Source: Plicaturopsis crispa FD-325 SS-3
Taxonomy: Eukaryota; Basidiomycota; Agaricomycetes; Amylocorticiales; Amylocorticiaceae
Length of the DNA stretch: 34,263 nucleotides
Assembly (NCBI GenBank): GCA_000827205.1
Contig: KN832581.1
Span: 80,769 to 115,031 of the forward strand
Direction of reading: 5' to 3'
The position numbers were made by a program, and so were the translations under genes. How positions within the stretch are numbered: position 1 is the stretch's first letter; every line of letters begins with the position of its first letter. Shown piece after piece: positions 21,162 through 32,078 of the stretch. The notes under the pieces are model-generated. The model was not told the DNA's origin and ran no database searches. It worked only from the letters and a program-made list of their open reading frames with translations.

Positions 21162-22199
21162 CCTATAAGGACCCCATGTAAGTCTTCGCCCTCGTCGGTC
21201 TGCCCTGTGGTTGCTCCGCTGATTTAGGCTATTTCAGGCAAGACCTACACGGGATTTTAGCCAGCGATCGCGATCGCGTATCGTACAAGCAGGCCACATT
21301 GAGTGCTCGTTAGGTTTGTGTAGTGTTTTACCTTGTCTTTCGGTGCTGTGGCTAACATCTTGTATTTGTAGGTCATCGGTGTGGTTTACCGACGCCATAA
21401 TCCGCAGTCCTCGGCGTCACAAACATGGCAAGCTCCATCAGCCGTTGCCTATGTCTCGAGGTACGTTTAGTTCGCCTTCACACACAAGTTTGGGTACTGA
21501 TGATATCTTACTTGTAGAACCCCTTTGGTCCTTGTCGTCCTAGCCGTGCGTCTGACATGAGCGGCGCGTAGCGCCGCCTCTCCCCTCATTGTACGTGGTC
21601 GATGGGTGCGCCATTGTGCACAGCACAGTATATACGGATCATGTTCCCGAGAGCGGTGCTAGCCGCTCGCCAAGTCCGCAGGTGTGTTCGCTCTCCCTTA
21701 ATGCGCGCATACGTCCTCATGAATACTCATTCGCAGGTCCGAACGGTCGTGCAACAAGTGTTGTACCTCCTCTTCGCGACCCTATCCGTCCGTGCGCACC
21801 CGTGGAATGTGCGCATTACCGCAAGTTCTGGCGGTGGGCCCTCCGGTATACATCTTCCTCCTTATCGTGCTTTACATTTTTTGACCGTTAATTTCCAGAA
21901 AAATTCTGATTGGTTGGGTGGCCCATGACTTTGCCCGTTCAGTGGCTGAGCGGGCAAAGTTGTCAGGTATTGTCTTCCTCACTAATCTTGGCTCAACACA
22001 ACACAAATCCGCAACAACGTGTGGTACCATCCCTCAAGGGCAAGCCTCCCTCTTCGCGGCCGACTGCACTGCGGCTGCAAACGGCAGACTGGAAAGGGCT
22101 GATGGAGCGCGGGATCAAGGCAATCCTGAACGGCGCAAAGGAGGTCATCACGGTGTTCGACTCGGGAGCACCGTAGCCCCGCCGGCGCTTCGCCTCGAC
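21162..22199. other. Intervening sequence with a perfect palindrome and coding-like scraps
   Basis: GCGGCGC-GTA-GCGCCGC at 21561-21577 is a perfect hairpin of the same class as those in the 10.1-10.8 kb tandem repeats. ATTTTAGCCAGCGATCGCG near 21255 repeats ATTTTGGCCAGCGACCGCG near 21113. At 21918-21966 one frame reads VAHDFARSVAERAKLSG before a GTATTG, exon-like but unrecognised. No gene can be assembled. Confidence 0.4.
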
Positions 22200-22600
22200 A
22201 CTGAATCTCGCGACGACGACAACGGACGCGGCATCAACGTTCTACTCGGCGCATCGCGCGAGCGGGCGGCCCAGGATGCACTACATGAAGCTGCAGTAGT
22301 TGCACGGCCAATAGGACCTTGTCGACCAGGGCTGCCCCGCGGCTATCTTGTTCGTGGACGCCGCGCTGCAGCGGGAAGAGGGTGTCCTCATTCAGTGCGT
22401 ATCTCGCACGGTCGTAGCTAATTTCCCACTAACGTGTGTGTGTGTGTAGCTGCCAGTGTGGCATCTCGCGCTCGGCGACGATGGTCATCGCTCTCGTCAT
22501 GCGAGCGCAAAGGCATCAGTGCAGCAAGCTTATGCGTATGTTAAAGAAAAAAGCAAATGGGTTGGACCCAATATGCCGTGCGTACACTATCCTCCTCGAT
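22200..22600 (+). pseudogene. Dual-specificity phosphatase pseudogene
   Basis: The catalytic signature of a dual-specificity (Cys-based) phosphatase is present: GVLIH ending exon 1 at 22394, a 55-nt intron at 22395-22449 ending in a GT-run plus AG, then CQCGISRSATMVIALVMRA. Joined, the HCX5RS loop is intact, with the nucleophile Cys in exon 2. Upstream, INVLLGASRE resembles the start of the domain, followed by a frameshift. Then MHYMKLQ and LHGQ are each cut by in-frame TAG at 22297-22299 and 22312-22314, before DLVDQGCPAAILFVDAALQR. Downstream, AYAYVKEKSKWVGPNM lies in another frame. So at least two nonsense changes and two frameshifts kill the gene while its active-site loop survives. Such enzymes dephosphorylate MAP kinases in fungi; the substrate here is unknown. 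Confidence 0.8.
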
Positions 22601-23393
22601 GTCGACGCGTGCTCACACAACGCGCAGTGTTATTTATCAATGACTCCACCTGCAGTGCTGTACCCATTGACATATCCACCGGACCGTCCGAGCCCCGCAG
22701 CGTGCCCCTTTGCGGGGTTCTTCGCAACGTACATCCGTGCATCATGTCCTCTGTCCATGGGCGGCGCGCGGGTGGTACAAGCGCCACACTGAGCGGTGGC
22801 GACAGGCTTAGCTGTGCGAGCGTCCGTGCCGTGCCGCCTAGTCCAGCTTGTTGCCGGCGTGCACGAAGGGTGCGCGGTCGGCGGCCTTGTGCGCGTCAAC
22901 CTCTAGCGGGGTGGGTAGGACTTGTGCGACACCTTGCCGACCACGGTGCTTCCAACCTCCTCCCTGTCTCTTCTACCTCCTCCTACGTCCCCGTCGCTCT
23001 CTGGTCTCTTTGCCATACCCTCCACATTACTGCCTGCTCCTCAGCACCTCCGCTTACCGCCTCCGCGCTGTTCTCACCACCCTCTGTTATGTGTACGTGT
23101 GCTGCTCCTCATCTTCAGCCACATGAGTCCTGTCCAGATACTTACAATACATCCATGCTTTATCAATGCACACATTAGAACCTCGACATTGTGCTGCACG
23201 GCCTCGCTGCCCATTATTCGATGTGATAGTGCATGCGGCTGTCATGCCTATTAGGCCTCGCTCTGGCTCCTCAGCAACCTGGTGAATGCATGGCTCTTCT
23301 GAAATGGTGTGCTCGCATGTACACCTCGTGAAGGTGATGTGTCCATCCTTGCTCGAACGGGGCGGATTGATGTGAATGTGGAAATCAAAGGGG
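22601..23393. other. No supported gene; decayed sequence before the recombinase
   Basis: No gene is assembled. On the minus strand near 22905-22845 a short frame reads EVDAHKAADRAPFVHAGNKL, coding-like but not recognised. C/T-rich sequence fills 22970-23080. The left end of the Crypton-like unit should lie somewhere in this stretch. Confidence 0.4.
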
Positions 23394-23400
23394 TATAAAA
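23394..23400 (+). promoter_or_regulatory. TATA box of the tyrosine recombinase gene
   Basis: TATAAAA lies 60 bp upstream of the ATG at 23460 in a G-rich context (GGGGTATAAAAACAGG). The distance is right for a short 5' leader. It is one of the clearest core promoters in the window. Confidence 0.6.
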
Positions 23401-23459
23401 ACAGGAGCTGCAAGTCTGAAAGAGCCGTGTTGTACACCCCCATCATCTCAGCTAACGAT

Positions 23460-25144
23460 ATGTCGCAACTTAGTACTTCACCGGCTTTTGCTGGTGTCCG
23501 CACTGCAGTAAAATCTGCTGACTCTACTGACCCTATTGATGTCGGGCAGATCCAGGATGACATTGACGGCGAGCAAGACTGCTATCCCCCGGTGCCTCCT
23601 ATATCTGGTGCCCGCAAATTGGAGGACGTTATGAGGGACGCTTCGAAAGGTGTTACGGACGCAACAGATGCGGAGTACAAGCGGTAAGTTTACTTAGCTA
23701 TCTCGATAATGACCTAGGCTAATACATGCATTTCTATCCAGACTAAACAAGCAATGTACGGTGTTTATGCGCGACCAGGGGCTGATTGCAAAGGACGCGG
23801 AGTTTTTCAGTTCCAATCCCATTACGAATGCACTACTTTACATTGCCGCCTGGATTATGCACGAGTAAGTGGCTGTCGTTTAGCTACACAATGACTCACC
23901 AACATCGTCCAGCTGCGACGAAATCAACCTTGATGGCACGCCTAAACCCCACACCCAAAGTCGCAGCTCCTATTCGCATGCACAGAAAATGCGAGCCTCC
24001 GCAACGTACGCATTTGGGCGTATTCATGGTCTTGGGATCCTGCCCTGGCATCAGAATGATGCTGGTCGGATGGTTGGGAATCCGTCTGTCTCCACCACCG
24101 TGTCGAGCTTCATGTTAAGCCTCCACCGGCGTAAAGTATGTCTTCTTTTCAAGGCTGCCGGTGGATATTTCAATAACTACTATTGCAACAGATTCGACTT
24201 GGAGAAACCTCCACATGTGCCCGTGCAATCACACCCGTAAGTTTGACACCACGACAAGGTCGAGTGTCTGCAGCTAACCCAATCATTTAGGATATCATGG
24301 AGAAGCTCTATGAATTCAATGGGCGCCCCGAGAACTGGGACCCAAAGCCATATGTACCAGGCACACGGACAGCCGATCGAGCCAACTGGGGCGGCCCAAA
24401 CACTCGTCGCATGCTGCAAGCGATATACACTCTTGCATTTGTATGTATGCTTCGCTTTGACGAAGTCCTCAAGATACAGATCCACGAGATGAGGTTTAAT
24501 GCTGATGAGTCCTTCACATTGACGCTACCGTTTCGCAAAACCCATCAAGAAGGAGGTATGTCCTAGTCCGTTTGACGACAAATTCAGGTTCTCATCTAAC
24601 GGTACCCGGCCTCAGGTATTCAGCCCTACGTTCTGCATCCGTTCCCAGACTGGGAAGCACATTTATGTCCCGTTCGTGGAGTGAGTCAGTGGCTCCTGAC
24701 GAGCCAGCTTAAAAGAGGCTATCTGTTCCCAGCAATGAGGTCTGGTGACCGCATCGCGGAAGATAATAGTGTCCCAATGGTACGTCGCAATGCTTCTTAT
24801 AAACCAGATACATCTCAGGCTCTGACTTTTGGTAATAGACAACGGAGCAGTTCTTAGAGCTGTTCCGTAACAACTTGATCGACATCAAGGTAGACCCGCA
24901 CCCATATGGGACTCACTCATTCCGCCGCGGTGGGTGCCAGTGGCTTGCTGTCTACAAGCGCTGGACCTTGCGGAAGATTTGCGAATGGGCAGGCTGGAGT
25001 ATGAACTTTACGCACTTGACCATTGTCAAGTACCTCATCTCTTCAAACGATGAGGCCGGGGAGCGGAGGGAGGAATTCTTCAAACCAAACCGTAAGCCAG
25101 CCACCAGATGCTACTCATGTGGTCGCACATGCCATTGCTCGTAG
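23460..25144 (+). CDS. Crypton-like tyrosine recombinase, 7 exons, intact
   Basis: The encoded protein looks like the tyrosine recombinase of Crypton DNA transposons, which would excise and integrate a circular intermediate through a covalent Tyr-DNA bond. Exons are 23460-23683, 23742-23864, 23913-24135, 24192-24236, 24291-24555, 24616-24779 and 24839-25144. All introns are GT-AG and the exons add up to exactly 450 codons with no internal stop. An N-terminal SAM-like region (ATYAFGRIHGLG, TCARAITPDIMEKLYEFNG) precedes the catalytic domain. Active-site residues are Arg260 (CMLRFDEVLKI), His374 and Arg377 (GTHSFRRGG) and Tyr413 (TIVKYLIS). The C-terminus ends in a Cys cluster (CYSCGRTCHC). I see no long C-terminal GCR1_C-type domain, which many described Crypton recombinases carry. 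It faces the SAP-like gene tail to tail at 267 bp. With all key residues present it is a candidate active enzyme. Confidence 0.85.
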
Positions 25145-25411
25145 TTGTCTCTGTGCTGTGCTATACATGTATTTCGCCTGTCCCTTCACGGGGCTGCTGA
25201 TTGAATACTATTCCTGTTACGGAGTGTCTCTCTAAAGTCATAAGAGCCTACTGCAGCATGCATTTTGTACCCAGCTACTCTCATTCAAGTCATCAATCCT
25301 ATATTTAAAGTTGAATGGACCGAAACTCGATAGCAGGACTAATGAAGTTGTTATATAGTACGACAAGCATAGCAGGTAGGCATATATGTAAGGAATGTAG
25401 GGTACAAGTAA

Positions 25412-27057
25412 CTAATTAGGATGACGGCTACGGTATTTCGACGCAATGCTTGCTGGGTCCGTCATGACACGATGCGTGTTACCCTTGCGATAACTGAAGA
25501 CCACATCAAACTCGTCACCATACTCAGCCTTGGCCCGTTCAACGATCTCTTGATCAGCTTGCATGCGCTGCTGCCTGAGGATCGAGGCGATCTTGGTATA
25601 CGACATGTAAGTTCCGTTCTCCTCGGTAAATTCTGCCCAAAAGGCCTCGCGCGAGCCGCGGCGGTAGCGCTCGACAATGAACTGTGGTAGATAGATGAGA
25701 AAATATAGACGAGCTAGCGGATACGGGTACTCACTTTCCAATCACACCAGGGAGCCTTAATCCCTTTCCATTGCAGCTCCTTCCCGTAGCGGTAGAGCTC
25801 AGGCCAATATACGAGAGCAATGGGGCGGCCTTGAAGCTGAAGCACAGACTCTCGTCCCCAGTGAAGCGAGGTGTCGTCCCACATGGCGTTGAGGCGGGGA
25901 AGGTTCTTGGCAAAAGTCACAGCCGGCGGGTCAGACACCTCCTCCTTTGTGAAGGAAATCATGGTTCCATCACCAAGCTTGAGCGTGTGGTGTGCAGACA
26001 GTGCAGAAGAACGTGGTGGTGGTGGTGGTGGTGTGGAAAGAGCCAAAGTCGAGGAAATCGAGGAGGATGCGGACGAGGGAGTCAGCTCCGGGAGAGCGGA
26101 CGGCGTTGTCGGTGTCTGCAGCAACGGAACGGACAGGCGGGGGTCATACAGGGACAGTGACGCATTTACAGATGCACCCGACCCTAGCAGATGCAGCGTG
26201 ATTGCCTGCAGGGTCTGCTCCGTAGTCTCCATATGCTTTTGCAGGGCAAGCGTGTCGAGTGAAGGCTAGAGACGGAGGTTCTGACCGTCAGTATAGGGAG
26301 CACACGGTCAGAACATGTGCAATACCTCGTTTACAGGGGTCGGTGGTGGTGCAGGAGGGGCAGCCTTCGGAACTGAGCGCAGGCGCGGGTACTTGATGGT
26401 CATAGCAGTAACCTAAGCAAAGAGGATTAGCGAGACTGGTCGGGGAGATTGCACGGACGCGCGCACCCATTTTGTCACGTTCTCCACCTCTTCAGCAGTT
26501 CTGGTGTCCTTGGAGCGTTCTGTAGGCAGCGCATGACGGATAAAGCCATCCGCCGTGCTTTCGCCAGAACCTCCGAATAGCTCTTGGCGCCTCCGGGTGG
26601 ACTTTTTGACCTTTGTCTTTGAGCTGCGCGACGTCGCTTGCGGTCCCTTGTGCTTCTTGCGTGCGGGGTCGAGAAGACTGATGATAACACGTTACTCAGT
26701 AAGAAGACAACAAATAGCATCGGACGTACCTCGTCCATGCGGCGCGGCCAGCGCTGAACGCGGAGAGCTTCGCAAAAAGCCCTGCCTTGTTCAGGCCAGA
26801 GTAGTTCGCAAGCTTGAAGTCCCTGCACAGCTCTATGAGTTCGGCATTCTTCATGTCATCACTGTGAAAAAGCAAGCGGTCAGCTAGAACGGAGGGGCGA
26901 CAGGTCGAGCTTACATGACAAGGTATGCAACCTTGTGCAGCCCGTCCTCCCCGATCTCCCCTGGGAACGGCATCCCACGTTTCTCGAGCGCGAGGGTATC
27001 GCGATTGGGCGCCGTGGATTCAGGCGCTGGCGGCGCGCCCATCTCGATGTCGCGCAT
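25412..27057 (-). CDS. SAP-motif protein convergent with the recombinase, 6 exons, intact
   Basis: I assign exons 27057-26915, 26861-26730, 26677-26467, 26412-26326, 26265-25735 and 25681-25412. All introns are GT-AG, and the sum is 458 codons without a stop. Residues ~49-85 (MKNAELIELCRDFKLANYSG then LNKAGLFAKLSAF) match a SAP motif, a helix-turn-helix-like fold that binds AT-rich DNA. A Lys/Arg-rich stretch (ARKKHKGP, KTKVKKSTRRRQE) follows, then a Pro/Ser-rich linker with a poly-Pro run. An aromatic-rich C-terminal domain spans ~310-425: LNAMWDDTSLHW, LVYWPELYRYGKELQWKGIK, WCDWKFIVERYRRGSREAFW, SYTKIASILRQQR. I know that C-terminal pattern from uncharacterised Agaricomycete proteins; whether it is a diverged GCR1_C-like DNA-binding domain is a guess. 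The start could also be Met at 27069 or 27042. The role is unknown. Intactness and position suggest a partner gene of the recombinase. Confidence 0.75.
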
Positions 27058-27419
27058 GGGCTCCTGCATGCCGGGATCGGGGAGGAGACGGATCAGGACG
27101 AGAGCGAAGGCGCCGGCGACGACGACGAGAGCGACGGCGACGGCGACGCGCGTGTCAGCGAGGTCGATGTGGAGGCCAGCGCACAGCGAGCGCAGGAGAC
27201 GGCGGGAGACGACAGCAATTTGTAGGCCGCCGGTGCCGAGCTCCAAACGGGCGGCGGCAGCCTGCACGATTTGGTTCCATTGGAGGGCGGCGAACGTCCT
27301 GGGGTCCAAGCTGGTCAGCGAGCGGGATCGAGATAGTCGAGAGGAAACGCGGCTGTGGCTGAATCGTGGTCGCGAAGCCAAACACAGCAGCCACCGAGGA
27401 CCGTCTCGCCAAAAGACGG

Positions 27420-29218
27420 TTCCCGTCCGCTTCCGGGGCCCGACGGTGATTCCGGCGTGACCACACCGTCTTTCTTCCGAGAGAAGACAGACTCGCGGCG
27501 CTGTAGCCACAGCGTCATCTGGCGAACATACTCGCGACGCTTGCTAGCACGGTACGCATCTTTTGTGAAGTCAATGTGTAATCGCTCTGAAGCCTCCGTA
27601 TTGTAGCCGTCCGCAGATCCAAGGTTCCGAATGGCGTCGGCGTAATGCAGCATGGAATGAAATTTGGGAATGTTGAAGTGGGTGCGAATCCCGAGCGTAA
27701 CAAAGATTTCTTTGCGAGTATGGAACTCCTCGAGGGCCGCCGACATCTTCGCGAGAGATTTCGATGTGTGAGTGTTGGAATTGGAATAATAAATAAAGTC
27801 GACTATGGCTCGGGCAGCGGCAATGACATCCGGAGGGACACATCCAGGAAGCGTGCCGACGAAAATCTTCTCCATTTCTCGATACTCGTTACCGGTCCAC
27901 TGGGAGATCGTCGATATTCCCTTCGTGAAGTGGCGTAGACCTGCATGGCCAGGCATGGCACGAAAACGTCGGTCGATCTCCTCAGCACCACCTGTTGCCA
28001 CCTCCGTACACCATTTAACAAGATGATCTTTGAACACGCCTTTGTGGAGTTGGTGAAGGATGTCGGGGCTGATAGAGGCGAAGATGTCACAGTGAGGTAG
28101 ATTGGCCCAGAATGGTTGAGGGATTGCGCGGGCGCATGGCTTTGGGAATATTGCCCACAGTGAGATATACGGGCCATGCTTTTTTGTCGCCACTGAATAC
28201 TGATAGATGAGTTTTGTCCGATGCCAGGATAATGGGTGCGATGGTGGCGCCCTTTGGAAGTAGTTCCTAACACAGATGCATGTTAGTTGAATTCAACGGC
28301 GGTGATTCTGCAGACAAACTGACCTGAATTTTCCACCACCAGTCGGCTGTCCATGCCTCATCGTAGACACGGTCCTCCCCATGTTTGTCGAGGAACACAT
28401 GCTCTGGCGCGTACTTGAGATGGTCTCGGAATGTCGGATTCCCTAGCAGCTCGCGCACGCAGTCCACCGGATCTCTCCGCCAAAGTTCCAGCTCCTCTAC
28501 CATCGGTTTTTTGTCCTCGTCAAGTTTATCTCCTGTGACGGTCAACATGTCGCAGGACCATCCTGGACCGGTGGGGAGCTCGTCAATCCGCTCAAGTAAG
28601 TTGCGGCTGTTGTGATATGATGTTTGTGTGCGCTCTTTAATCTAGTATCGCCCCAGCCTGTTAGTACGTCGGAAACCCGTGGACCTGAGAAGTGCTCACA
28701 ATCGGGAGCTTGAGAAATGATTCCGTTTGTGTCTTCCCTACGTTTTTCATGAGCCATGATGCCAGTTCCTACTCGTCCTCGTCTTCGAACGGCCCCCAAA
28801 ATCCATGGTCCTTTCCAATACCCTCTCGTTAAATTTGCTCAAATTTTGTCCACCCTTCACCAACTGATCCTCCAGCATTCGCCGATCCTGGGAAATCCTG
28901 AACCCATCTCTCGTGCGTCTTTCCCGGCGCATCCTCATCTTCTATCTCCTCCACCCGAGCTCTTTTCGATGGTCGTGGATTGGGCTCGTCCGCGTTGTTC
29001 TCACACACGATCTCAGCCATGGGAGTGACCTCCGGTGCGTTGCTGTGTCGTATGTTGCCGTCTCCGCCCTCATCGCTCACACCTGCTTCCACAACAATTT
29101 GGGCGTCCAGCGGATAGCGCCGTCGATACAAGTCACGGCATGTACGAGTGTGGATGACATGGAGGCGGACACCCTGCCGACTAGGCAGCCATTTCTTGCA
29201 GAAATTGCGTTGAGGCAT
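27420..29218 (-). pseudogene. Second Plavaka transposase copy, dead and truncated
   Basis: The N-terminus at 29218 begins with a degenerate zinc finger (FCKKWLPSRQGVRLHVIHTR then TC). RWVQDFPGSANAGGS leads into two in-frame stops, TAA at 28829-28831 and TAG at 28769-28771; the second sits where EDEDEWELASWLMK expects Trp. The frame goes on through ELELWRRDPVDCVRELLGNP and WTADWWWKIQ. A 57-nt intron (28323-28267) leads to [20 protein letters not shown] and TVGNIPKAM. There the frame shifts near 28140, and the family's middle part (CPVC knuckle and surroundings, some 150 or more residues) is missing. [36 protein letters not shown] and [20 protein letters not shown] follow. Recognisable sequence ends near 27420, where the upstream region of the SAP gene begins; the frame itself runs to 27315. 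It is clearly inactive. Confidence 0.85.
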
Positions 29219-29607
29219 GAGTAACGCAGGAAGCTAGGTTTGTTGCGAGCACAAGGTGGGTGATGTCTTAGTCGTATTTTTGGGGGCTACGTATTGGAGC
29301 TGAAGCTGAGTCAAAGGAACTGAACGTTGCAGAGCGTATGAGCGGACAGGATACGGCATTGAATGCCGAATATTTCCATGCAAACAAGTGCAACGACGGT
29401 ACGTGGTTCTTGGTTACCGCAGCGCCCAGCATTTCAGCTTACGCGTATAGCCTCTTGCTTCAGACGGTCACCTAAAAGCTTGTCTTTCCACAAGGTTTCG
29501 TTTCTCTTTTCCAAGTGCGCCTTTTCCGGCGTGAAACATCATTTGTGAGCAGCTGGAATTGGTTACAATACTCCCCGAACTCATTGCGCGCTGTATTTTG
29601 TCAGGAC
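29219..29607. promoter_or_regulatory. Intergenic region between head-to-head Plavaka copy and DUF6532 gene
   Basis: 390 bp separate the two divergent starts. I see no clear TATA box and no word shared with the terminal regions at 5216 or 15392. It must hold the promoter of the DUF6532 gene. Confidence 0.4.
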
Positions 29608-32078
29608 ATGCCAAAGGTTGGTGTCGCAGGCGCCCTTTCAAGGATGGGGAGTGCGAAGGTGAAAGCAGTGAAAGCAAAGCGCGCGGTTGAGGTGACCACG
29701 GACATTGTGGATGGCCGCCGCGTAAGTAAGAACTCGGAGGCTAAAAACCGTATTTGTAAGTCTCCGCGCCCTCTCTCTGCTAGTGTCCATCCCGTGGCTT
29801 ATCCCCAAGATTCACCCAGTACAAGACGAGGCGGAAAAGACGGCGCAGAAGGCCGCTGCTGCTGCGAAGAAGGCCAAGAGGAAAGCCCTTGCTGAAGACA
29901 AGCTGGCTTTCGACAGGAAGACATCAGCCGAGCATGCAGTGCGTATTCTGACATGGTCGGATCTTCCAAACAACCGCCTATATACTGAAATACATCATTC
30001 AACTTAGGCACAGTCACGCGCTAAGAACAAAAAGGTGTGTTGCGGACCTTGTTTTCGACCGTATATTGACAACGTCTGTGCTGCATAGCAGCTCAAGGAC
30101 AGTGCCGTGAGCGCTGAACTTACTCAACCACCTGCGCAGGCCATTTCAGACGCGGAAGATGACAACACGGACATCACTGGTGACGACAAAGAGGGTACCA
30201 CCACAATCGAGAGCGAGGATACGGAGTCTGAAGATGAAGCCAGCGCAAGTGGTGAAGGTAGCGATAGAGAAGACGATAGTCCCGCGGGTGTCAAGTCGGA
30301 CGGTAACGGCCAGGTGGCCCGTCTCAAAGACAACGATAACAATAGCTCGCGCAAACATCCTTCCTCTCCGGCCCTAGAGAGCGATGAGATGGATCAAGAC
30401 GAGCAGGATGTGCGCTTTGCTAAGCCGACAGGTCACGAGTCAAAGGTGTGTCTGTTGATCCTGCACTATCGTGCTCTCTTGTCTTGTTACTTACACGACT
30501 TTAGATTGCGTTCAAGGTTATCAGCGAGGCACCCAAGGGTCTCGTCGTGCGCAAGGAGGCGGTACCACTTCCCAGTCCATCGGCGGTTGCGAATACTCAT
30601 CGGAGCCCTGCGCGTTTGAATCTGCCGGTCGCCAATGCACCGGGAACGAGAAGTACGTCTGTCCGACTTGTAAATTTGCCTGCAGTGACTAATACGGCTC
30701 CTTGTCACTGCTGTTAAAGCTCCAGGTATCATTCCGCAATCCGTTCTGTCACAGTATATAAAATCTGATCAGCGCACGATAACCACAGAGCACTTATTCT
30801 TGTCGGAGGGTGAAGATGAGCATCCTACACGTTCATCAGTGTCCCCGGTGCAGTCGGACGTCCCCGAACGCCCTCGGAAGAAGCATCGGACGAAAGGCAT
30901 CGACACCGCTACGCCCAATAGCGGCGACGCCATTTCGGCCCCAAAACACAAGTCAAAGCGCGGAAATCGTAAGAAAAGCAAACAGCGCACCCGGCCTACA
31001 GCCAGGGCACTCGGGAGCAGTGATACGAAGGCCGTCCTCAAGGTAGCTGCGAAACTCTACCGCTGCTGGTTATGTACAGCGGAGCCGTACCCTGAAGACG
31101 ATGAACGAGATCTCGCTGCATCCCATGCGTGGGCTGAGGCCTGCCATACGAAGATGTTTGAAGATCAGGAGTTCAACGGAGACCTTCGGTTGCTGGTACG
31201 AGATGGCATCTACATTTCAGTAGCAGTATCCCAACTAATAGTACGGTATCAATTTGCTACAGATCGTGCGTCGCGGCTCACAAGTACGAGGCGAGCTAAT
31301 CACCAAGGCGCGCCCTATTGTGAAAGGGTACTTTGGCTTCCATTCCGGGAAGGACGAGGCTGATGTTGACCACAACCGGGACCTCGTTGACGCTCTCAAA
31401 TCAAACGCTGGATACCTCTATGCGGTACGTGGTACACTACATCTATTAAGTATATGCAAAGTATATCTCACACTTTTTTGCTATGCTGCTAGGATCCCGA
31501 GCAACAGGTCGGCCTCTGCGAGAGTCGCCTTGTTCAAGAGGTCATCAACGCCATGTGGTTCATGAATAAGCGTGACGAAGGGGTAACTGAGACTGCTTTC
31601 TTCGATCCCCTGCCACTGGTCACGGTCGCCCTTGTGTTTACAGTCGTAAGGGTTTTAAGAGTGTATACCCCAAGCTATTCTCCAAGACTGATTTTTTGTT
31701 CACGCACTAGATCGAGCACTGCATTGACGAGTTTTCCACCGGAACACAACGCGAGACAGGATTCAGCGAAATCCTTTGCAAATCGCATCAGGAGGCACAT
31801 GTGCAGATCCTCCGCGACTTCGAAGCGTTTGACCCCGTCAACTTCAGCTCCATTTTGTCCGACATATATACCATGGGATTGTGCGTGATGATCTATTTTA
31901 CTGCCTGGCATCGTGACTGATATCTTGAATCAATTCTAGGACATGCGCAGGTGTCTCAACGTCGTCTCCCGTCCCCAAACCGCTTGTGACCAACATTGAT
32001 TTTGCACGCTCTGTCACAGCGAGGACGGCCAGGAAATATTCGAGGGGGATGACAAAGGATGAGTTTGTGGAGGAGTAG
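29608..32078 (+). CDS. DUF6532 family protein, 10 exons, intact
   Basis: DUF6532 proteins are an Agaricomycete-expanded family of unknown function, often found near transposons. Exons are 29608-29721, 29810-29938, 30008-30034, 30089-30445, 30505-30652, 30720-31195, 31263-31424, 31493-31645, 31711-31880 and 31940-32078. They total 625 codons without a stop, about 624 aa. For the first intron, a donor at 29722 with the acceptor at 29809 keeps frame; a 28-nt alternative seems too short. The N-terminal half is Lys/Ala-rich (AEKTAQKAAAAAKKAKRK), then strongly acidic and Ser-rich, then basic (RKKHRTKG). The DUF6532 domain occupies roughly residues 400-580: IVRRGSQVRGELITKARPIV, LVQEVINAMWFMNKRDEGV, FDPLPLVTVALVFTVIEHCI. 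The gene is expected to be nuclear given its charged tracts. It is head to head with the dead Plavaka copy. Confidence 0.85.

Follow-up and report, generated by a model that had tools for sequence, protein, structure and literature searches.

Does a tyrosine recombinase gene that ends close to a second gene belong with it to one mobile element, and would such an element be a Crypton? The question is raised by a stretch of 34,263 nucleotides from the agaricomycete Plicaturopsis crispa FD-325 SS-3 (contig KN832581.1, positions 80,769 to 115,031; hereafter the window, meaning this whole stretch), in which a tyrosine recombinase (YR) gene and the gene for what we call the partner protein lie amid the debris of other elements. 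An original prediction, made from the DNA letters, had proposed that the two form a split Crypton, the partner contributing a SAP DNA-binding motif. The window lies in a 33.2-Mb genome of 49 contigs; below, C-numbers denote its contigs and L-numbers denote fetched stretches. Our analysis indicates that the pair is almost certainly real and conserved, and that it probably represents a YR transposon, present or former, with two genes and a Crypton-like mode of action.

A recombinase gene and its partner in two organisms

Both gene models (Table 1) are genuine, such a run of open codons being implausible by chance. The six introns of the YR gene (48–60 nt) and the five of the partner gene (52–60 nt) are all GT..AG, and GC content at third codon positions (GC3) is above intron GC in the YR gene (0.57 vs 0.43) as in the partner gene (0.64 vs 0.51). 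The models are considered settled because a second locus, L058, carries homologues of both. Clean splicing confirms what had been predicted, two multi-exon genes open across 13 exons and placed tail to tail, and the debris said to surround them consists of a C2-like fragment at the left and a decayed Plavaka transposase at the right.

The R, K, H, R, W and Y residues make up the complete active-site set of tyrosine recombinases. In an alignment of the window YR with two paralogues, R260, K288, H374, R377, W398, W401 and Y413 are invariant columns, so that the predicted tetrad (R260, H374, R377, Y413) is complete and the enzyme, judged by sequence, is catalytically complete, as expected of a Crypton. 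The Pfam family Phage_integrase remains below its cut-off (0.0015, 18.8 bits vs 27.1), and the protein is assigned by its complete complement of active-site residues together with its relatives; an integrase family of PHROGs matches it at 0.006. The protein ends in a CxSCGRxCxC cluster, the short Cys cluster of the original prediction.

The decisive comparison is with L058 (VBAU01000226.1; 4883 bp), a contig that is catalogued as part of a Bacteroidetes metagenome-assembled genome (MAG) and the one of 94 pattern-matching stretches of a prokaryote genome collection found to encode a relative. Its GT..AG introns plainly mark it as a eukaryotic contaminant; the sole other match in the rest of the MAG was 32% over about 50 amino acids (aa; E 0.0117). 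L058 encodes a YR of 434 aa that is 40% identical to the window YR and, on the opposite strand, a partner of 364 aa that matches residues 105–452 of the window partner (BLASTP 1e-25), with 137 bp between the predicted start codons. All five L058 introns (YR 4/4, partner 1/1) match window introns in alignment column and phase, the window YR and partner genes having two and four introns more than their counterparts. The two recombinases share the CxSCGRxCxC terminus, which is lacking in the paralogues at C6 and C13, and they group with a support of 0.975 in a four-sequence tree; identity of the L058 YR is 39.8% to the window YR, 25.8% to that of C6, and 24.7% to that of C13. Likewise, the C-terminal domain of the L058 partner finds a sole match in the 33.2-Mb genome, namely two exons of the window gene. 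Because both homologues adjoin in L058, which stems from a distant organism, with shared introns, the two genes almost certainly form an inherited unit that has long been kept together, as the original prediction held, a conclusion that rests on two linked cases, the window and L058. Scans of viral contigs gave no further linked pair.

L058 has a third gene, with the Cys motif KCSHCKFIKK..ICGC, that lies tail to tail with its YR gene and has no counterpart in the window by tblastn. A comparison of its product with the window partner reached a z of 8.9 (0/1000 shuffles), but the stretch aligned by tblastn is Pro/Ser/Thr-rich and the match was discounted.

The partner protein has a SAP/Rho_N-like segment (aa ~50–85), a basic stretch (aa ~97–124), and a conserved aromatic C-terminal domain (aa ~290–452), the last two having been correctly anticipated. 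The SAP motif does not hold up as a defining part. Scanned alone, the segment gave Rho_N at 0.0088 (16.4 bits vs a Pfam cut-off of 24.9) and SAP at 0.11 (12.6 bits vs 23.9), and the whole protein gave Rho_N only, at 0.12; in L058 the motif is absent, the partner beginning beyond the expected position of the segment with little room upstream. The SAP-like segment is only suggestive. No Pfam family exceeds its cut-off in the partner, no peptidase match was found with Pfam, and a comparison with solved structures gave nothing at E up to 1. Relatives of the partner in its own genome comprise one good copy, a decayed piece with stops at C27, and a doubtful match at C5. The latter (C5:1725392, L041) is a 375-aa open frame with weak similarity to partner residues 112–223; its E value was 0.0124 genome-wide and, in tblastn searches of small sets without correction, 1e-4 and 3e-5.

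Ends of L058 and a possible fused relative of the pair

L058, as seen in one contig, resembles a compact transposon some 4.7 kb long. Near both ends lies an inverted repeat of 14 nt without mismatches, GAAAATACAGTCTC, with more copies inside the left end, and CCGCGG stands immediately outside it (on the left, two bases further out). When the flanks were compared with each other, the inverted match scored 15 (with the inner left copy) against a maximum of 13 in 200 shuffles, and the direct match scored 13 against a maximum of 12. No clear target-site duplication was seen by eye at L058. These inverted end repeats argue against a classical Crypton there. L058 is also rich in the palindrome GTCGTTNNNAACGAC: with up to 2 mismatches allowed, its 4.9 kb contain 16 copies where 0.09 would be expected, the copies being spread over introns, exons, and intergenic DNA. 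Counts of iterated palindromes are 11 in L058 and at most 3 in the window, 2 at C6, and 4 in the C13 stretch, compared with 2 in shuffles.

The recombinase pattern H-[SC]-F-R-R-G-G is found at exactly four places in the genome, the window, C6, C8, and C13 (control reading 0 and 1). A 6-kb stretch is present twice, at C8 and at C13 (L038 85–6097, L039 3023–9021), with 92.6% identity between the copies. In it the YR gene reads on, without a change of strand, into an additional C-terminal domain, giving a protein of 657 aa. No stop occurs in 656 codons compared between the copies, and dN/dS is 0.11. Both copies also carry an open reading frame (ORF) that resembles by eye a TET/JBP-type 2-oxoglutarate (2OG) oxygenase, with no Pfam match above cut-off. 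Because the left boundary of the stretch is sharply defined, at TA[CT]GTAGGCCCTAC, this could be a YR element that was active recently. The YR at C6 is without such a domain; its last intron is common, in column and phase, to the window and L058 YRs. It lies tail to tail, about 30 bp away, with a different single-copy ORF (L037 5143–5793) that has no Pfam match. Kinship of this ORF with the partner or with the third gene of L058 was considered and rejected (for the full-length partner, 10/300 vs 79/300 shuffles with two matrices).

The C-terminal domain of the partner resembles the fused domain of C8/C13, a likeness first spotted by eye and then tested. In pairwise comparisons the score was reached by 11 and 22 of 1000 shuffles for the window partner (two matrices) and by 2 of 1000 for the L058 partner. 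With a two-sequence profile of the partner domain, the C8/C13 domain ranked first of 2001 (2000 of them shuffles). The same profile, run against 6806 ORFs from the fetched loci of the same genome (a redundant set), placed it at the top outside the window (E 0.24), the next distinct match being at E 5.9, and hhalign of the two domains gave P 0.0018 and a probability of 15%. This favours shared descent of the partner domain and the fused domain, with one protein split into two. Genome-wide, GCR1_C matches (E up to 1) occur at C5, C1, and C4 only. A GCR1_C identity for either domain was rejected, there being no Pfam match and no pairwise signal against the C5 GCR1_C locus. The original suggestion that DNA-binding capacity has moved to a separate gene is weakly backed by the likeness to the fused domain. 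The C5 locus (C5:1356809, L052) is itself CryptonF-like, GCR1_C being found with a HATR-type YR motif nearby, a motif that we take to be CryptonF-like.

Known elements and competing explanations

In the available parts of their account, Kojima and Jurka (2011; PMC3212892) describe CryptonF elements as a YR fused to GCR1_C, with a second gene for a C48 peptidase added in some CryptonS and oomycete CryptonF elements; the premise that described Cryptons usually encode one protein is thus only partly correct. The same parts describe animal Cryptons without a C-terminal domain, short direct repeats as Crypton ends, mostly very low copy numbers, and MarCry-1_FO, fused to mariner, as the sole Crypton there with terminal inverted repeats (TIRs). 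According to the portion of Bao and Jurka (2013; PMC3627910) at hand, YR-using transposons lack TIRs, and MCi-2 combines a partial Crypton YR with target duplications. Against this background, terminal direct repeats of 4–6 bp and no TIRs were taken to define a Crypton, a YR with a conserved C-terminal region (and TATGG termini in the majority) a CryptonS, and an RT/RNase H gene (RT, reverse transcriptase) with split or inverted repeats a DIRS or Ngaro element.

Like CryptonF, the window pair appears to be DNA-only with an R-H-R-Y recombinase, and three GCR1_C loci exist in its own genome; unlike CryptonF, neither window protein has a GCR1_C match (Pfam, E up to 10), any DNA-binding capacity would sit in the second gene, and the YR motif reads THSFRRGG rather than the HATR of the C5 locus. 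CryptonS and oomycete CryptonF share with it the two-gene YR arrangement, CryptonS also the lack of GCR1_C (PMC3212892, in part), but the second gene of the window has no peptidase match and no end repeats are established there. Animal CryptonA and CryptonI resemble it in having a YR with no C-terminal domain and no terminal repeats found, and differ in that no conserved partner gene is mentioned for them in the available text (PMC3212892). The C8/C13 gene has a homologous YR, 25–27% identical to that of the window, and a C-terminal domain that is weakly partner-like, but it encodes a single protein of 657 aa, has no Pfam GCR1_C match, and shares no intron column with the window YR, the nearest being two columns off with identical phase.

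Starship captains are likewise fungal YRs, of the DUF3435 type, and mobilise DNA. For the window proteins no DUF3435 match was obtained (Pfam, E up to 10), and the window unit, if its limits are set by the debris on either side, would be smaller than 5 kb. The proposed Crypton membership would agree with a complete YR and with the finding of no RT family in the window proteins or the L058 gene products scanned; no GCR1_C domain and no convincing ends were found, there is one close copy, and the pair does not fit the definition of CryptonF. Literature searches, with most subscription journals and preprints uncovered, returned no title on such a pair of YR and partner.

We think it probable, on the sequence evidence, that the two genes form, or once formed, a YR transposon acting in the manner of a Crypton. 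Such a module would combine a YR with a complete active site and a separate partner protein, and would be, or derive from, a DNA transposon. The YR would cut and rejoin the element ends through a covalent phosphotyrosine link, while the putative role of the partner would be to bind element or target DNA in trans, the role proposed also for the fused C8/C13 domain and for the GCR1_C of CryptonF. The window copy, single among debris, may by now be dormant or domesticated. More tentatively, and with less confidence than we would need to assert it, the pair could represent an uncatalogued lineage of eukaryotic YR transposons that assign catalysis to one gene and DNA recognition to another. The fused YR form in the same genome would be either its ancestor or its descendant, and at least one member, L058, would be bounded by inverted repeats and carry 16 palindromic candidate binding sites.

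Several observations weigh against a mobile two-gene unit. One close copy of the pair is present in the 33.2 Mb of its own genome. Repeat searches and a flank-against-flank test gave no convincing ends or direct repeats for the window unit, the direct flank match scoring below the null mean, and GTCGTTNNNAACGAC occurs 0 times in the window against 1.5 expected. None of the three other YR loci has a SAP-type partner in 9.4–9.9 kb, two of them being matched by its Pro/Ser-rich part only (E 0.64–0.85), and no YR is found in the 9.5-kb stretches fetched around the C27 partner relic and C5:1725392 (best E 1.3). The likeness to the fused domain is weak (E 0.24; hhalign 15%) and was first noticed by eye, and GCR1_C matches neither that domain nor the partner in Pfam. 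Finally, the genes are convergent in the window (YR> <partner) and divergent in L058 (<partner YR>), which does not support the convergent order as the conserved state. Circular permutation of the L058 order, with the third gene dropped, would give that of the window; a circular intermediate reopened elsewhere could yield the one from the other, an idea drawn from two cases.

Some of these points would be explained if the pair came from a mobile element and is now a single-copy host locus, serving for example in regulation or programmed DNA rearrangement. We regard such domestication as rather unlikely, yet it would account for the single close copy, for the persistence of both genes intact beside decayed elements, and for the lack of convincing ends, and domestication of Crypton YRs has been described (PMC3212892). 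Against it, all catalytic residues are kept here, whereas DUF3504 domesticates lack most of them, and very low copy number is usual in most Crypton hosts (both from the consulted parts of PMC3212892); moreover, L058 resembles a compact element with end repeats. The C27 relic without a YR, the three YRs without a SAP-type partner, and the unconserved orientation could instead suggest that the relic of a YR and a SAP-type host gene unconnected with it are neighbours by chance. This is very improbable given L058, where both genes are adjacent with common introns, the partner domain matches the window gene only, and the YR is closest to the window YR; a rough estimate of chance adjacency (4 YR loci x ~4 kb / 33.2 Mb) is about 5 in 10,000. 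The original prediction had made the unit depend on whether homologues of the SAP gene normally have a recombinase neighbour, and here the cases divide, since the C27 relic has none nearby but the L058 homologue does.

Two other kinds of element were considered as the source of the pair. The partner gene starts 426 bp from the end of the Plavaka DNA similarity, on the same strand, as might be expected if both genes were cargo of a Plavaka (CACTA-like) transposon, the one to which the neighbouring transposase belongs. This is improbable and was set aside as unsupported: the closest Plavaka copy (C9, L042) has neither gene in 9.9 kb (E up to 1), the window relic is cut at 27484, and the L058 gene products scanned have no Plavaka match. 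The least likely account of all is that the pair remains from a YR retrotransposon (DIRS or Ngaro) from which the RT has been lost. Ngaro elements with YRs do occur in fungi including Agaricomycotina (PMC3783388, in the part available), but besides the lack of any RT match noted above, in both loci the gene paired with the YR does not encode an RT, and several introns are kept that retrotransposition through spliced RNA would presumably have removed.

To our knowledge, the targets and accessory factors of eukaryotic YR transposons are mostly unknown. The ends of these transposons are hard to define (PMC3212892). If the pair is indeed a two-gene YR transposon, its conserved division between YR and partner would offer a clean system for testing how far elements of this kind depend on a second DNA-binding subunit. 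The L058 palindromes GTCGTTNNNAACGAC would supply a candidate binding site, and the fused gene of C8/C13 a natural comparison within the same genome.

The locus and its flanks

Table 1. Features of the pair and of its surroundings, in window positions.
Feature	Position	Strand	Description	Basis or role
Tyrosine recombinase (YR) gene	23460..25144	+	7 exons, 449 aa	splicing
YR exons	23460-23683, 23742-23864, 23913-24135, 24192-24236, 24291-24555, 24616-24779, 24839-25144	+		
Partner ("SAP") gene	25412..27057	-	6 exons, 457 aa	splicing
Partner exons	27057-26915, 26861-26730, 26677-26467, 26412-26326, 26265-25735, 25681-25412	-		
Gap between the two stop codons	25145..25411	.	267 bp, genes tail to tail	
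TATAAAA box	23394..23400	+	59 bp upstream of YR start codon	read directly
Left flank fragment	22087..22646	+	85% identical to C2:1152440-1153038	left bound of unit
Right flank, decayed Plavaka transposase	27484..31886	-	relative at C9; DNA similarity ends at 27484	right bound

The best inverted match between the flanks of the pair, 22986–23001 with 27127–27142, brackets both genes and agrees at 15 of 16 nt (score 13, reached by 1 of 200 shuffles). It was not counted as a pair of element ends because its right arm lies within a GAC/GGC-rich tandem stretch. Further left, at 21924–21960, stands a 36-nt near-perfect palindrome, TGACTTTGCCCGTTC[AG]GTGGCTGAACGGGCAAAGTCA. Among the genome matches listed there are six more near-identical copies, with CCAATCA within about 20 nt in four of the six; as a dispersed genomic repeat with no tie to the pair, it was rejected as an element end. 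On the right, the Plavaka identity of the decayed transposase is given by a Pfam match of 3.3e-18 for the ORF at 27315–28292, and the Plavaka profile has 84 matches genome-wide, exons of one gene being counted apart.

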